Positions 9,107 to 32,080 of a DNA stretch of 34,552 nucleotides are shown here, in pieces. The notes under the pieces are model-generated. The model saw only the letters and a program-made list of their open reading frames with translations, had not been told where the DNA came from and did not search any database. The stretch spans positions 1 through 34,552 of the forward strand of contig JADFTK010000007.1 of the NCBI GenBank assembly GCA_022560375.1, given 5' to 3'. A program made the translations under genes and the position numbers. Numbering within the stretch: position 1 is the stretch's first letter; every line of letters begins with the position of its first letter. The DNA comes from Patescibacteria group bacterium (GTDB lineage Bacteria; Patescibacteriota; Patescibacteriia; UBA10025; JAHIVO01).

Positions 9107-10920
9107 CGTTTTAATATGGCCAAGAATGCCTCCTGGGGAATATCAACCTTGCCCATGGATTTCAGGCGCTTTTTTCCTTTTTTTTGCTTAGAAAGAAGCT
9201 TCTTCTTGCGCGTGACATCACCTCCATACAAATTAGCCGTAACGTCTTTGCGCATTGGTGGAATGCGTGAGGCAGCAATGATAGTCCCCCCTACTGCCGC
9301 TTGAATTTTTACCTCGAACTGTTGACGCGGCAATATATCTTTTAGATTATCTACAACCTTCCTGCCGGCTCGGTAGGCCTCGTCTTTATTTACAATACTA
9401 GCTAAAGCCTCGACAATTTCACCGGCCACTATTATATCCAGCTTCTGTATTGAGCAAACTCTATACTCTAAAAAAGTATAATTCATGGAAGCATATCCAG
9501 AGGAAACACTCTTTAGTTTATCATAAAATTCAATTAATATACTAGCTAAGGGAACTTGGTAATGAAGGATAGCTTTGGCACTATCAATATATTCGGTATC
9601 AATATATACCCCTCTTTTTTCCTTAACCAAAGACATGATACTGCCAATATATTCTGCCGGTGTCACAATATCAACTAACATCCAGGGCTCCTGAATAGAC
9701 TCCAAATGGCTGGCGTCAGGTAGCTTCAAAGGGCTGGTCACTATGGCTTGTTTGGCGTTAAAGCTCTTGTCCCTCTTTTGCATGGCCCGAAAACCATTAT
9801 CATTGTAAACAACTCGGTAACCGACGGAAGGTGCAGTTACAACTATTTTTAAATTATGTTCACGGGCTAAACGCTCTTGGAATATATCCAAATGAAGCAA
9901 TCCCAAAAAACCACAGCTAAAACCAAATCCCAGCGCATCTGAGTGATCGGGCTCAAAAGTTAAAGAGGCATCACTTAAGGCAATCTTATTAATCCCCTCC
10001 CTCAGGCGTGCATAGTCATCACCTTCCTTGCAAAAAATACCAGCAAAGACCATGGGTTTTAATTCCTGATACCCGTGCAGAGCCTCCAGGGATGGATTGT
10101 TGGCGACAGTAATGGTATCACCAACTCGTGAATGCTGAACATCTTTTAGTCCGGAAACGATATACCCTATGTCCCCGGCCTTCAACTCGCTTGACGAAAC
10201 TAATTTTGGTTTAAAGTAGCCAACATCCAAGCACTCGGCCTCTTTTTTACTGGCCATTAATAATATCCGATCACCTTTACTGATCTTTCCACTAAATACT
10301 CGGCCATATACTATTACTCCCTTATATTCATCGAATAAAGAATCAAAAATTAAAAACTGAGTAGGATCATCCACGCTACCCTTTGGTACTGGCACTCTAT
10401 CAATAACAGCCTGGAGAATCCCTTCAACCCCATCACCCGTCTTGGCAGAAACGGTAAGCACCTCTTCAGCCTGACATCCGATCAAATTGACAAGGTCCTT
10501 ACGAACACGCTCAATGTCAGCGTTTGGTAAATCAATTTTATTTATTACCGGGATAATAGTTAAATCCTGGTCAATAGCCAAATATAAATTAGCCAGAGTT
10601 TGAGCCTCGATGCCCTGAGTCGCGTCAACTAACAGAATGACTCCCTCCACTGCCGCTAAAGATCGAGACACCTCATAGGTGAAATCTACGTGTCCGGGCG
10701 TATCGATTAGATTTAGAATTTTACCTCTAAACTCCATACGCACTGGTTGTAGCTTGATGGTGATGCCTCGTTCCCGTTCTAGATCCATTTGATCCAACAT
10801 TTGATCTTTCATTTCCCTCTTACTGACAGTGCCCGTAATCTCTAAAAACCTATCGGCCAGTGTGGATTTGCCGTGGTCAATATGGGCTATTATGCAAAAA
10901 TTTCGGATATTATTATTCAT
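9103..10920 (-). CDS. lepA: Elongation factor 4 (LepA GTPase)
   Basis: This is a 605-residue translational GTPase of normal LepA length. The P-loop is AHIDHGKST near residues 12-20, switch II DTPGH near 77-81 and the guanine-specificity motif NKID near 131-134. The LepA-specific C-terminal domain ends in GKKRLKSMGKVDIPQEAFLAIL, with its basic GGDVTRKKKLL segment. It binds ribosomes and remodels stalled or mistranslocated elongation complexes. The gene overlaps the 3' end of murJ by 8 bp, so the two are almost certainly co-transcribed. No SD is present; the upstream sequence is the end of murJ. Confidence 0.97.
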   Translation of the reverse strand: MNNNIRNFCIIAHIDHGKSTLADRFLEITGTVSKREMKDQMLDQMDLERERGITIKLQPVRMEFRGKILNLIDTPGHVDFTYEVSRSLAAVEGVILLVDATQGIEAQTLANLYLAIDQDLTIIPVINKIDLPNADIERVRKDLVNLIGCQAEEVLTVSAKTGDGVEGILQAVIDRVPVPKGSVDDPTQFLIFDSLFDEYKGVIVYGRVFSGKISKGDRILLMASKKEAECLDVGYFKPKLVSSSELKAGDIGYIVSGLKDVQHSRVGDTITVANNPSLEALHGYQELKPMVFAGIFCKEGDDYARLREGINKIALSDASLTFEPDHSDALGFGFSCGFLGLLHLDIFQERLAREHNLKIVVTAPSVGYRVVYNDNGFRAMQKRDKSFNAKQAIVTSPLKLPDASHLESIQEPWMLVDIVTPAEYIGSIMSLVKEKRGVYIDTEYIDSAKAILHYQVPLASILIEFYDKLKSVSSGYASMNYTFLEYRVCSIQKLDIIVAGEIVEALASIVNKDEAYRAGRKVVDNLKDILPRQQFEVKIQAAVGGTIIAASRIPPMRKDVTANLYGGDVTRKKKLLSKQKKGKKRLKSMGKVDIPQEAFLAILKR

Positions 10921-12541
10921 AATTTATATCGCTACCATTTTCCCCGTTAGCAAACTGGCGCTTGGCCTTTCTGTACCAATCTGAAATTATTTTTATCTCA
11001 TCACATTTAAAAATATGAGCCAGGATTAAATAAAAAACAATGCCTATAATCCCCGCCCCCACTCCCTGGATGAAAATACCTACGAAGCTCTGCATATTCA
11101 CTCCCAGGGATAAAACGTATTTGGCAGCAGTGACCACCGCTCCCATCATGGCTGAGATAAGTACTATTTTTACGATGGAGAGGACAATCTTCTTATCATC
11201 AAGGTAGCCTATTTTTCGGCGTAATAGTATCAAAAGTAATAACATATGAATAAATCCCGCGATGGAGAATGCTAAGCCCAGGCCTATTACCCCCATATTC
11301 GGCACCAGTAAAATAGCCCCAATTATATTAATAGCTACCGCCACGATAGCAACCTTGACCGGCGTCTTCGTATCCTGCCAGGCATAAAAAGACCTAGCTA
11401 ATAGAGGAATAACCGCCTGGGCGAACAGAGATAACGAGAAGAAGCCCAGCGTTTGAGCGGTCAATATGGTATCGGTCCAGTCAAAAGCCCCTGCCCCCAA
11501 AACGACTCGGACTATCTGGGCACGTAAAAGAAGGATTAAAACGGATATGGGTATCACTAAAAATAAAATTCTCCTGAAAGTGGTGGAAAAATGCACCACA
11601 AACAATTCCTTATCTTTTTTCGCCGAAGCCTCGCTGATAAATGGGAATGAAGCGATGGCTAAGGAAACGCCAAAAACACTAATCGGGAAATACTGGAGAT
11701 TATTAGCAAAATTAAATACCGCGACTGATCCTACAGCCAGCGTCGAGGCAATAATAACACTAACCAGCTGATCTATTTGGCTTACCGCCAATCCAAACGT
11801 ACGGGGCAGCATCAATCGTCCGATAGTCCGCACCCCACGATGCCGGGGATCAGCAATCAGCTGATAGCGGTAACCAAGTCTCAAAACACCTGGTATTTGT
11901 ATGGCTAAATGCAAAAGTGAACCCAGTACTACACCATAAGCTAGGCCATAAACACCATACACCGGTACTAAAAAAACGATGCCAATAATAATGCCGACAT
12001 TATAAAAAACAGGCGCAAAAGCGAAATTTGCGTACCGTTTAAAAGAATTTAGCACTCCAGTCAATACATTACTAATCCCAAAGAATATTATTGAGGCTAG
12101 CATGATTCTAGTCATACTGACTACCATGGCTTGCTTAGCAGCCTCAAATCCAGGCGCGATCAACGGAACAATCTGAGGGGCAAAAATAAAAAATAAGGCT
12201 CCAAAAATAACTAAACCTATTAAAAGTATATTTAATAAAGAATTAACTAAGTACCAAACGTCTGCCTTCTTCTCAGGATCTTCTCTGGCGCTCTCTATAT
12301 ATTGGACAAAAATGGGAATAAAAGCTGCTGACAATGCCCCCAGTACCAATACATTGAAAACTAAATCGGGAATTCTAAAAGCAGCGTAGTATATATCAAG
12401 CGTATCCCCTGCGCCAAATTTTGTAGCTAGTAGTCTATCTCTAACTAAACCAAGCAGTCGGCTAGTAACAGAAGCAGACGCTACTATAATTGCACCACCA
12501 GCTAAGGTGGTGGTTAACTTGCGCCAAATTTTTGGAATCAT
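10913..12541 (-). CDS. murJ: Lipid II flippase MurJ (MviN family)
   Basis: This is a 542-residue polytopic protein with about 14 predicted membrane helices. The N-terminal MurJ signature is ASVTSRLLGLVRDRLLATKFG, with conserved arginines, and there is a FGAGDTLDIYYAAFRIPD segment. It flips lipid II across the cytoplasmic membrane for peptidoglycan synthesis. A promoter-like pair lies immediately upstream and would leave only about 8 nt of leader. The 3' end overlaps lepA by 8 bp. Confidence 0.93.
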   Translation of the reverse strand: MIPKIWRKLTTTLAGGAIIVASASVTSRLLGLVRDRLLATKFGAGDTLDIYYAAFRIPDLVFNVLVLGALSAAFIPIFVQYIESAREDPEKKADVWYLVNSLLNILLIGLVIFGALFFIFAPQIVPLIAPGFEAAKQAMVVSMTRIMLASIIFFGISNVLTGVLNSFKRYANFAFAPVFYNVGIIIGIVFLVPVYGVYGLAYGVVLGSLLHLAIQIPGVLRLGYRYQLIADPRHRGVRTIGRLMLPRTFGLAVSQIDQLVSVIIASTLAVGSVAVFNFANNLQYFPISVFGVSLAIASFPFISEASAKKDKELFVVHFSTTFRRILFLVIPISVLILLLRAQIVRVVLGAGAFDWTDTILTAQTLGFFSLSLFAQAVIPLLARSFYAWQDTKTPVKVAIVAVAINIIGAILLVPNMGVIGLGLAFSIAGFIHMLLLLILLRRKIGYLDDKKIVLSIVKIVLISAMMGAVVTAAKYVLSLGVNMQSFVGIFIQGVGAGIIGIVFYLILAHIFKCDEIKIISDWYRKAKRQFANGENGSDINYE

Positions 12542-12596: not shown

Positions 12597-12762
12597 CCAA
12601 AAAGCTGCCGGCTAGGACGGAAAGTTTAGATTATTGAATAGAAGGTGTTCTAAATAACTTTAGAACATGAGGAGAGAGATTTTTCTATTCAAGTAAATTA
12701 AACTACCGCCACGCAATAGTCGACAGCTTTCTGTAGCTAACCTATAAATAGAATTAGTTAGC
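12597..12762 (-). ncRNA. Candidate structured small RNA upstream of murJ
   Basis: A good minus-strand promoter predicts a start at 12762. The transcript begins with a GCTAAC/GTTAGC hairpin (12736-12762). A 16-position closing helix follows, pairing 12717-12732 with 12599-12614 (AGAAAGCTGTCGACTA with TAGCCGGCAGCTTTTT), with 15 pairs including two G-U. Inside it are a 10-bp helix (TTGAATAGAA/TTCTATTCAA) and a 9-bp apical hairpin (TGTTCTAAA-GTTA-TTTAGAACA). One side bulges a pyrimidine tract containing CTCTCTCCTC, which is SD-complementary. The long rod with internal loops also resembles 6S RNA in outline, but I cannot confirm that. No ORF of note is encoded. The 3' end is uncertain. Confidence 0.45.
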
Positions 12763-12768
12763 AAACTA

Positions 12769-12797
12769 ATCGTAGAAAAACAATATTCATTTGTCAA
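12769..12797 (-). promoter_or_regulatory. Promoter for the RNA candidate upstream of murJ
   Basis: Perfect TTGACA (12797-12792), a 17-base spacer and TACGAT (12774-12769) on the minus strand. This is essentially the same architecture as the rnpB promoter in this window. The predicted start at 12762 coincides with the base of the first hairpin of the downstream RNA. Confidence 0.6.
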
Positions 12798-12810
12798 GAA
12801 ATATAATACT

Positions 12811-12914
12811 CACTTTTGAATTTACTAGACTTGCTAATACATTCAAAAGTGGAGGAGAGAGGCAGAAAGTTTTATCGTCAGATGACAATATTACTATTCA
12901 TTTGCCTCTCTCCT
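12811..12914 (-). terminator. Double inverted repeat at the 3' end of the 150-residue membrane protein gene
   Basis: Reading on the minus strand after the stop at 12932, a 12-bp perfect stem AGGAGAGAGGCA/TGCCTCTCTCCT (12903-12914 with 12853-12864) is followed by CCACTTTTG. The CACTTTTGAAT of that tail itself forms an 11-bp perfect stem with ATTCAAAAGTG (12841-12851 with 12811-12821). An 11-bp direct repeat ATCGTCAGATG (12874-12884, 12928-12938) spans the stop codon. The layout is a terminator-like hairpin whose T-rich tail is the arm of a second hairpin, the same as in the other gaps of this island. Confidence 0.5.
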
Positions 12915-12931
12915 TTGTGAATTGGAGATCG

Positions 12932-13592: not shown

Positions 13593-13709
13593 CTCTTTTT
13601 CAGCAAACTTGAGCCCTATGGGCGATATCCTGAGTCCGGATGGACGAAGGAACTCACATTCGCTGGAAAAGAGGTATGAGACAAGAAATTAAAACTCCAT
13701 GTCTCATAC
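13593..13709 (-). repeat. Island hairpin module, divergent copy
   Basis: Two adjacent stems. GTATGAGACA (13674-13683) with TGTCTCATAC (13700-13709) is a perfect 10-bp hairpin directly downstream of the 51-residue gene. CTCTTTTTCAGC (13593-13604) with GCTGGAAAAGAG (13662-13673) has arms identical to the other two copies but a different, longer loop of 57 bases. Identical arms around unrelated loops suggest selection on the stem. On the minus strand the first hairpin is followed by CTCTTTTCC, like an imperfect terminator tail. Confidence 0.6.
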
Positions 13710-13929: not shown

Positions 13930-13988
13930 TTTCTCTTTTTCAGCATCTAATGACATTAAGCCGTTAGACGCTGGAAAAGAGGGGCGAG
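13930..13988 (-). repeat. 59-bp direct repeat, copy A (hairpin module)
   Basis: Identical over 59 bases to 14510-14568. Arms CTCTTTTTCAGC (13933-13944) and GCTGGAAAAGAG (13970-13981) extend through ATCTAA/TTAGAC to an 18-position stem with a single mismatch and a 13-base loop. GGCGAG at its edge (13983-13988) pairs with CTCGCC (14007-14012), the hairpin at the 3' end of the lipoprotein gene. It lies about 43 bases upstream of the 51-residue gene's start. Confidence 0.8.
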
Positions 13989-14473: not shown

Positions 14474-14509
14474 TTTTGGTACCTCACTTGTAAAGAACGT
14501 TGGCGTTTT

Positions 14510-14568
14510 GTTTCTCTTTTTCAGCATCTAATGACATTAAGCCGTTAGACGCTGGAAAAGAGGGGCGA
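14510..14568 (-). repeat. 59-bp direct repeat, copy B (hairpin module)
   Basis: Exact copy of 13930-13988, 580 bases away. Arms are at 14513-14524 and 14550-14561. Its outer edge GGGCGAGAGATAA (from 14562) pairs with TTATCCCTCGCCC (14591-14603) to form a 13-position stem next to the stop of the 42-residue peptide gene. Beyond the shared 59 bases the second stem differs from copy A yet still pairs, which argues for conserved structure. It lies about 39 bases upstream of the lipoprotein start. Confidence 0.8.
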
Positions 14569-14631
14569 GAGATAAAAGAGTGTTATCATATTATCCCTCG
14601 CCCGTGGCATCCGTTAAATTTACAAGATGCC

Positions 14632-15074: not shown

Positions 15075-15116
15075 AAAAAACGAGCAGTCCTTATTTTTTT
15101 GGAGAGCTCGTTTTTT
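15075..15116 (-). terminator. Bidirectional intrinsic terminator
   Basis: An 11-bp perfect stem AAAAAACGAGC (15075-15085) / GCTCGTTTTTT (15106-15116) encloses a 20-base loop. On the minus strand it ends in six Ts, and on the plus strand it ends in TTTTTTG. It can end the polysaccharide operon whose last stop is at 15383. It also lies about 130 bases downstream of a consensus promoter on the same strand, so it could be an attenuator for the small-gene island. Confidence 0.75.
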
Positions 15117-15251
15117 GTTTGAGTTATTGTTGGTTGCAAATAATACATCTTATAGATATATTATTCCCATCAAAAAGCATCTGCTTTTTTAACGACTCTC
15201 TCCTCAAAGAGTTTTGATATATTGTTTTATAAAACAACAGTTTAACAAGCA
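15117..15251 (-). ncRNA. Possible leader RNA or small RNA between promoter and terminator
   Basis: The interval between the TTGACA/TATGAT promoter and the intrinsic terminator would give a transcript of roughly 130-170 nt. It contains the palindrome near its 5' end, a purine-rich tract matching an SD but with no start codon at the right distance, and a short AAAAAGCA/TGCTTTTT hairpin. An 18-codon ATG frame exists 19 bases after the purine tract, which is too far to be convincing. Either a free small RNA or an attenuated leader fits. Confidence 0.35.
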
Positions 15252-15280
15252 ATCATATACCTACCTGGTTTCCCTGTCAA
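15252..15280 (-). promoter_or_regulatory. Consensus promoter facing the small-gene island
   Basis: Perfect TTGACA (15280-15275), 17-base spacer, TATGAT (15257-15252) on the minus strand, the same hexamers and spacing as the rnpB promoter. A 10-bp palindrome CCACATGTGG (15291-15300) lies just upstream of the -35 box and a 16-bp palindrome TTGTTTTATAAAACAA (15222-15237) just after the predicted start near 15245. Both are plausible operator sites. The transcript reaches the terminator at 15116-15075 after about 130 nt and contains the purine tract TGAGGAGAGAG (15206-15196) but no SD-linked start codon. Confidence 0.55.
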
Positions 15281-23165: not shown

Positions 23166-23603
23166 TGCCTAAATAAACCTATAAGCCGAATCCTGTATCC
23201 GCAAAAAGCGGACGATGATTATCTATCTGGTTCCGACGTTACCATCGAAATCGAGCGACCAACCCTCTCCACTATATTAGCGGAGACTACTTGGTCTTGC
23301 ACCGGATAGGGTTTTTCACATTGATCGATCGCCCGACCAATCTGTGAGCTCTTACCTCACCTCTTTTCACCCTTGCCTGTGGCCGCCTAAGGCGACCCAT
23401 CGGCGGTATTGTCTCTGTGACACTAATCCCGAGGTGACACCCCTTAAAAGACTATAGACCTTTTAAAAGCTGTTCCTGGTCGCATTTCGCGACTATCCAC
23501 TTCCCCTTCACCTTTATACATTTCTAAAACCTACAAAGGTGAAGGGGGGTGTTCGGACTTTCCTCCCCCGCTAGTGGGGGCAATCATCCAGTTTATTCAG
23601 GCA
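23166..23603 (-). ncRNA. rnpB: RNase P RNA, bacterial type A
   Basis: The minus strand carries the universal 5' core GAGGAAAGTCCGAACAC just after a GC hairpin. The mid-molecule landmarks GGTGAGGTAAGAGCTCACAG follow, then the 3' core AGATAGATAATCATC and ATACAGGATTCGGCTTATAGG. The ends pair as helix P1 (GCCTGAATAAAC at the 5' end with GTTTATTTAGGC at the 3' end), which sets the boundaries at about 23603 and 23166. The 3' consensus ACAGAA-CCGGCTTA appears here as ACAGGATTCGGCTTA. It is the RNA subunit that matures tRNA 5' ends. A near-perfect promoter predicts the same 5' end. Confidence 0.95.
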
Positions 23604-31701: not shown

Positions 31702-31773
31702 GGAGCCTTATGTTGGGTAGTATAGTAGCTTTATTGTTGCTATTCAGAGGTTTGACTCCTCTAGGCTCCGCCA
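31702..31773 (+). tRNA. tRNA-like gene with encoded CCA and an irregular anticodon arm
   Basis: Acceptor GGAGCCT/AGGCTCC, discriminator G and an encoded CCA are clear. The T arm AGAGG-TTTGACT-CCTCT has T where the invariant C56 is expected. The central part, TAGTAGC-TTTATTGTT-GCTATT, gives at best a stem with a 9-nt loop, so no anticodon can be assigned. At 69 bases without CCA it is short. It is either a diverged or mobile-element tRNA, or a decaying copy. A strong terminator follows. Confidence 0.4.
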
Positions 31774-31814: not shown

Positions 31815-31891
31815 ATAAAGCCTGGCGGTAATTACGTTTATATCACCTCTTAAAGGCTTCCAAAAAAGAAGAAAAAAATGTATACTACAAA

Positions 31892-32051
31892 TATTCCTTC
31901 GGGGTTGGGTGCAAGTCCCAATCGGTGGTATAGCCCACGAGTCCTACAGGACACGATTTGGTGATCCGCCTGCCAAACTACCTGCAAGCCGCAGGCAATG
32001 GCTGGTAGAAATTCCAAAGCCGACCGTATAGTCGGGATGAAAGAAGGAAAT
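31892..32051 (+). promoter_or_regulatory. FMN riboswitch (RFN element)
   Basis: All landmarks of the RFN aptamer are present in order: P1 ATTCCTTCGGGG, GTGCAAGTCCCAATCGG, GGTATAGCCCACGAG, a GATTTGGTGA segment, a variable arm, AATTCCAAAGCCGACCGTATAGTCGG, then the closing GAAGGAAAT. FMN binding would favour the terminator that follows and lower rib gene expression. It lies directly upstream of the riboflavin genes. Confidence 0.93.
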
Positions 32052-32080
32052 GACCCATCATTGGTGGAGAGTTTAGGTAC

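Follow-up and report, generated by a model that had tools for sequence, protein, structure and literature searches.

The window considered here, a 34,552-nucleotide stretch of Patescibacteria DNA, carries beside murJ a short minus-strand element that an earlier note, made from the sequence alone, had taken for an undescribed structured RNA, and it raises the question of what kind of RNA this could be and with what it might interact. This element, which we call RNA1, is preceded by the claimed sigma-70-type promoter TTGACA-17-TACGAT (12769..12797, minus strand), a 10/12 match to the consensus with TTGACA at 12797-12792, a 17-nt spacer and TACGAT at 12774-12769. The whole feature extends over approximately 12764-12597 on the same strand, and no reading frame is open across its full length. 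Both the MFE and the centroid fold contain the proposed 5’ hairpin (12736..12762), after which a closing helix, AGAAAGCTGTCG / CGGCAGCTTTTTG, and inner stems form a rod (12598..12733). The ends joined by the closing helix lie about 136 nt apart and not 100 as first stated, and what had been read as two nested stems is one continuous rod. The one large bulge, of about 15 nt, had been described correctly: it carries CTCTCTCCTC (12678-12669), which is ~99% unpaired in the ensemble and forms the core of a nearly invariant unpaired strand, AAATCTCTCTCCTC (12669..12682), that we propose as a seed, with an apical hairpin (12646..12667) on its 3’ side in the window. Folded as the minus strand (181 nt), RNA1 has an MFE of -57.1, compared with -30.6 +/- 3.5 for dinucleotide shuffles (z = -7.65), and 0/200 shuffles were equally stable; the plus strand of the locus is also stable (z = -5.0), as expected because the rod is palindromic.

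RNA1 is almost certainly a conserved RNA family that has not been described before. A gathering scan of the window against Rfam assigned it to no family, a permissive scan (E<=10) returned only chance matches to unrelated microRNA and lncRNA models, and in both types of scan the window and 11 homologous loci yielded microRNA-type chance matches and one sub-threshold isrK, on which basis membership in a known Rfam family was rejected. Identity with bacterial SRP RNA was rejected as well: RNA1 shows no SRP motif by eye, and the small bacterial SRP RNA (RF00169), like 6S RNA (RF00013), was not found in its own genome (G000, 97% complete). The open-access literature, with preprints outside the scope of the search, held no description of such an RNA. 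A DNA search of 95 related genomes recovered diverged copies that have the bulge, the closing helix and the promoter in common, and in total about 50 homologues were found in Patescibacteria (CPR), in which a rod of 25-63 enclosing pairs surrounds an unpaired AAAUCUCUCUCCUC (~50 loci, recognized by the 14-mer or the core).

Covariation is strong. In a 17-sequence alignment built from sequence alone, 92.4% of the cells of a 31-pair structure hold standard pairs, compared with 36-39% after a shift of the partner by 1-3 columns; 16/31 pairs change on both sides, and 0/500 shuffles attained the observed score. Double changes occur in 31/31 pairs of a 36-sequence structure-fitted alignment, which is biased towards the structure by construction. 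The RNA1 alignment contains 117 G-U but only 21 A-C cells, and this excess fixes the transcribed strand. With no Rfam match, many homologues and covariation, the undescribed structured RNA of the earlier note is borne out.

The 14-mer AAATCTCTCTCCTC occurs as a single copy in each of 52/380 genomes of a class that we place near GTDB ABY1/Patescibacteriia, against a chance expectation of ~3 occurrences and 1 match to the reversed pattern, with 5 of the 52 looking spurious on folding. Outside this class, RNA1 was detected in 4 genomes of other classes in the phylum (G400, G401, G470, G521). A longer RNA1 pattern matched 90 stretches across ~85,000 species, compared with ~58 expected by chance as estimated from base counts, and fold and motif occurred together almost only in CPR records (Ca. 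Uhrbacteria, the Parcubacteria group and other Patescibacteria). We discounted the matches outside CPR, whose number approximates the chance expectation and most of which lack the fold; three loci from other phyla (L209, L202, L248) with similar pair counts but GC-rich sequence were taken as chance, and viral contigs, with three motif matches and the fold in none, were rejected as carriers. Scanning whole genomes with a covariance model matched 2/286 and missed known members, so that the result was uninformative. In 14/50 homologues, the 150 nt upstream contain a promoter of at least 10/12; the corresponding figure is 7.6% for random noncoding positions and 3/48 for the opposite strand. A terminator at the closing helix was considered and dropped, 3’ T-runs being found in 17/50 cases and in 15/50 on the opposite strand, which is not a significant difference.

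The position of the seed within the rod differs between lineages, the apical hairpin lying 5’ of it in ~40 members and 3’ of it in ~10, the window included. The seed sequence is unchanged whichever rod strand carries the bulge, and the exposed sequence is therefore the conserved part of the molecule; if it is indeed a seed, the bulge of such a rod can display it on either strand.

A candidate partner of RNA1 is encoded on the same strand, a few kilobases further upstream. RNA2, a noncoding RNA delimited by sequence and fold (15075..15245, minus strand), follows a TTGACA-17-TATGAT promoter (15252..15280; 11/12 by sequence) and ends in a terminator hairpin with a T-run (15116-15075), and its hairpin ACTCTTT-GAGG-AGAGAGT (15195..15212) presents TGAGGAGAGAG, the exact 11-nt complement of CTCTCTCCTCA in RNA1. 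RNA2 thus presents GAGGAGAGAG, the exact complement of the RNA1 seed, and the same arrangement recurs in five further genomes (G001-G005). The RNA2 terminator, as well as the partner RNAs of G003 (L358/L359), holds CTCTCC...GGAC in an internal loop, so that RNA2 could also pair with itself (GGAGAG with CUCUCC). In the interval from RNA2 to RNA1, small ORFs, one of them lipoprotein-like, are separated by a hairpin with arms CTCTTTTCCAGC / GCTGAAAAAGAG that occurs three times (~14503-14571, 13930-13985 and 13615-13680, minus strand).

Sites of this kind accompany RNA1 well beyond the window. GAGGAGAGAG precedes RNA1 on its own strand in 5/5 genomes first examined, and GAGGAGAGAGT is present in 38/50 RNA1-positive genomes compared with 19/59 members of the class that lack the exact RNA1 motif (motif-negative genomes; Fisher p = 7e-6, kinship ignored); an exact GAGGAGAGAGT site was not found in a few RNA1-positive genomes (e.g. 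G061, G097, G126). Just upstream of noncoding GAGGAGAGAGT sites, a promoter of at least 10/12 occurs in 17/45 cases, compared with 169/2724 random noncoding positions and with 1/45 on the opposite strand. When a partner site lies within 6 kb of RNA1, it is upstream and on the same strand in 13/16 cases (p = 4e-6 against one quarter), or in 9/12 when counted by family (p = 4e-4), amounting to 13 genomes and 9 families, where the counts were gathered by hand from loci of unequal flank length and the p-values are indicative.

Two genomes without an exact RNA1 motif extend this association. In G003, which belongs to the window’s family, RNA1 precedes murJ and retains an intact core (AAACTCTCTCCTC); it is itself preceded by three GAGGAGAGAG sites, of which two belong to units complete from promoter to terminator. 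In G019, from another family, two partner sites 200 nt apart led us to predict an RNA1 with a different flank, and an RNA1 rod of 48 enclosing pairs carrying TTTCTCTCTCCTC was indeed located 2.7 kb downstream of them on the same strand.

The earlier note had read the bulge as complementary to SD sequences. The near invariance of the bulge within RNA1 supports, in general terms, a mode of action by pairing with purine-rich sequence, but the conserved partner found is a second noncoding RNA and not the SDs of a conserved mRNA set: among the RNA1-positive genomes, 6/62 GAGGAGAGAGT sites precede an ORF start as an SD by a simple start-codon rule. No recurring target was found among these six ORFs, which look unrelated when their N-termini are compared by eye, and about half of the GAGGAGAGAGT sites fall in open frames or are unexplained.

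Partner RNAs are built in markedly different ways around one constant sequence. Copies in other genomes hold 2-6 seed-complementary sites. One noncoding transcript of ~560 nt in G093 (contig C13, locus L289, reverse strand 1075-1680), running from a promoter to a strong terminator, contains four exact GAGGAGAGAGU sites and two near ones (one GAAGAGAGAGU, one GAGGAGAGAGG). Four Ca. Uhrbacteria loci (L315, L317, L321, L326) carry structured modules of ~190 nt, tandem in the first three, each with a GAGGAGAGAG site, a conserved GATCAC..GTGATC helix and a TGACTaGG..CTTACTCA internal loop; these modules are possibly an RNA family of their own. At L311 and L322, the partner site lies in the bulge of a rod, as a mirror image of RNA1. 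A MAFFT alignment of RNA2, from which a fifth row representing a wrong stretch was left out, shows low identity outside the site, and no single fold is common to all families, which suggests that the sites may have arisen more than once. We found no case of seed and site changing together, in searches that largely required the core sequence. Such variety of design around a constant sequence gives RNA2 the look of a decoy or sponge.

With a conserved structure, an open seed, exact complementarity, own promoters and same-strand linkage established computationally, we consider it moderately probable (roughly 60%) that RNA1 acts as a small RNA by base pairing and has RNA2 as its dedicated antagonist. 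RNA1 would act in trans, its rod keeping a pyrimidine strand of 10-15 nt, AAAAUCUCUCUCCUC, permanently single-stranded as a seed, and it probably acts by pairing with GAGGAGAGAG-bearing RNAs; the exact match of its ten-letter exposed sequence to RNA2 makes pairing and mutual control probable. RNA2, as the main conserved partner, would be a noncoding RNA transcribed on its own, its one to six sites displayed in a hairpin loop, a bulge or a tandem module, and would most likely serve as a sponge or antagonist, titrating RNA1 and so keeping it from purine-rich ribosome-binding sites, the target mRNAs presumably being those that bear such sites. We infer from the sequences that both RNAs are transcribed and pair in cells, and that regulation runs in this direction. 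The 11-bp duplex between them has a computed energy of -18.8 kcal/mol, and the computed cost of opening is ~7 kcal/mol for the RNA2 hairpin and almost nothing for the RNA1 seed. First contact would be made by CCUC of RNA1 with the GAGG that is single-stranded in the RNA2 loop; this bulge-loop contact would be a pseudoknot and is therefore not scorable by co-folding, which excludes pseudoknots and gave 0 for the pair.

The arrangement appears to have its nearest working analogue, with no sign of common descent, in RoxS and RosA. RoxS of B. subtilis is an sRNA with C-rich regions, and RosA is a stand-alone sponge with three complementary G-rich regions (PMC8216469). The likeness, drawn for RNA1 and RNA2 from sequence and predicted fold, is that a stand-alone RNA exposes a pyrimidine seed and that complementary purine regions occur in another RNA, which has a promoter of its own. 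The differences are that the RNA1 seed, CUCUCUCCUC, sits in the bulge of a long rod instead of belonging to a C-rich region in a short sRNA, that the host belongs to CPR, with upstream same-strand linkage of the partner in 9 families, and that no Rfam sRNA model matches RNA1. The staphylococcal C-rich-loop sRNAs and RsaI likewise expose a pyrimidine-rich seed able to pair with SD-like purines, as RNA1 would, but differ from it in seed, fold and phylum, and no conserved mRNA target set was found for RNA1. RsaI itself has been discussed as a possible sponge (PMC8216469).

CPR, made up of ultra-small candidate-phyla bacteria, represents a large share of bacterial diversity in which RNA regulation is almost uncharted. 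If our reading is correct, RNA1 would be a regulator of lineage-wide reach, nearly invariant in its seed, maintained as a single copy in reduced genomes and accompanied by a complementary RNA over many families. We see an even chance that this two-RNA system, a rod-shaped seed RNA with a linked multi-site complement, predates the split of several Patescibacteria classes and has been kept in genomes of ~1 Mb, possibly as a global translation switch.

The roles could also be reversed, with RNA2 as the effector, either a scaffold or an SD-bearing transcript that otherwise binds ribosomes, and RNA1 as its controller. The partner RNAs of Ca. Uhrbacteria and G019 are elaborate tandem modules with conserved structure of their own, beyond what a simple sponge would need, but both structure and copy number are better conserved in RNA1, and the fold and site number of RNA2 vary as they do in decoys, making such a reversal unlikely.

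The composition of the seed invites another explanation, in which the unpaired YC-rich strand of RNA1 is a decoy for a protein (Rho, a cold-shock protein or an S1-like protein) and the purine-rich RNAs only prevent or relieve the binding. The seed is a run of UC dinucleotides, and such runs suit the primary site of Rho; moreover, the AAAA flank of the seed is kept in most members even though RNA2 has no match there. Binding of a protein would not by itself predict promoter-driven RNAs with an exact complement linked to RNA1, and other YC sequences would be tolerated by the protein, yet the 10-nt core is kept. We accordingly regard a protein decoy as rather improbable.

The earlier note had compared the rod to 6S RNA, and RNA1 could in principle be a 6S RNA peculiar to this lineage, sequestering RNA polymerase by mimicry of an open promoter. 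It shares with 6S RNA a rod shape, a size of ~170 nt, a single copy and a promoter of its own, and the role is vacant, as RF00013 detects no 6S RNA in 77 genomes of the class (0/77 at E<=0.1, controls positive). The model also gave no match at E<=10 in the window region or the own genome (gathering score 46.4 bits, controls positive), and this search together with the anatomy rules out membership in the 6S family. RNA1 lacks the central two-sided bubble between two helical arms and has instead, by the apical hairpin, a one-sided bulge of ~15 nt that is found on the 5’ strand in some lineages and on the 3’ strand in others, a change that a mimic of DNA should not tolerate; its conserved part is a nearly invariant UC-rich run complementary to another RNA. 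The 6S comparison is therefore not supported, and a polymerase-sequestering role is very unlikely.

The murJ gene (10913..12541, minus strand; Pfam PF03023, E 4e-96) is indeed the downstream neighbour in the window, but this part of the earlier description is not general: murJ follows RNA1 in the window’s order and several other families, rpoB in Ca. Uhrbacteria, and elsewhere ftsK, ftsW or a CCA/poly(A)-polymerase-type (CCA-transferase) gene. That RNA1 acts in cis, as a leader or attenuator of the downstream gene, is hardly credible, for although in many loci it precedes a neighbour of the same orientation, with only 56 nt before the start of murJ in the window, the neighbour differs by family and is on the opposite strand in loci such as L183 and L033, which argues for an independent gene, and the copies of the window, G002, G003 and G038 have promoters of their own.

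Between the upstream gene and RNA1, the window also contains two adjacent strong hairpins (12811-12927) with outer arms AGGAGAGAGGCA/TGCCTCTCTCCT. We had considered CCTCTCTCC (12850-12920) as a part of the system and rejected it, as it is a hairpin after the upstream gene of which homologues keep the hairpin and not the sequence. In G001 and G002, hairpins with other sequences stand at the same place, so that the pair are probably terminators, and the resemblance of their sequence to the RNA1 seed is likely a coincidence.

Elsewhere in the window, ARAGORN called a tRNA-Asn with the unusual anticodon ATT at 31702-31773, which Rfam did not report and which is probably a false call. Above the Rfam thresholds, the window contains a class A RNase P RNA (23166-23599, minus strand) and an FMN riboswitch (31891-32052, plus strand).
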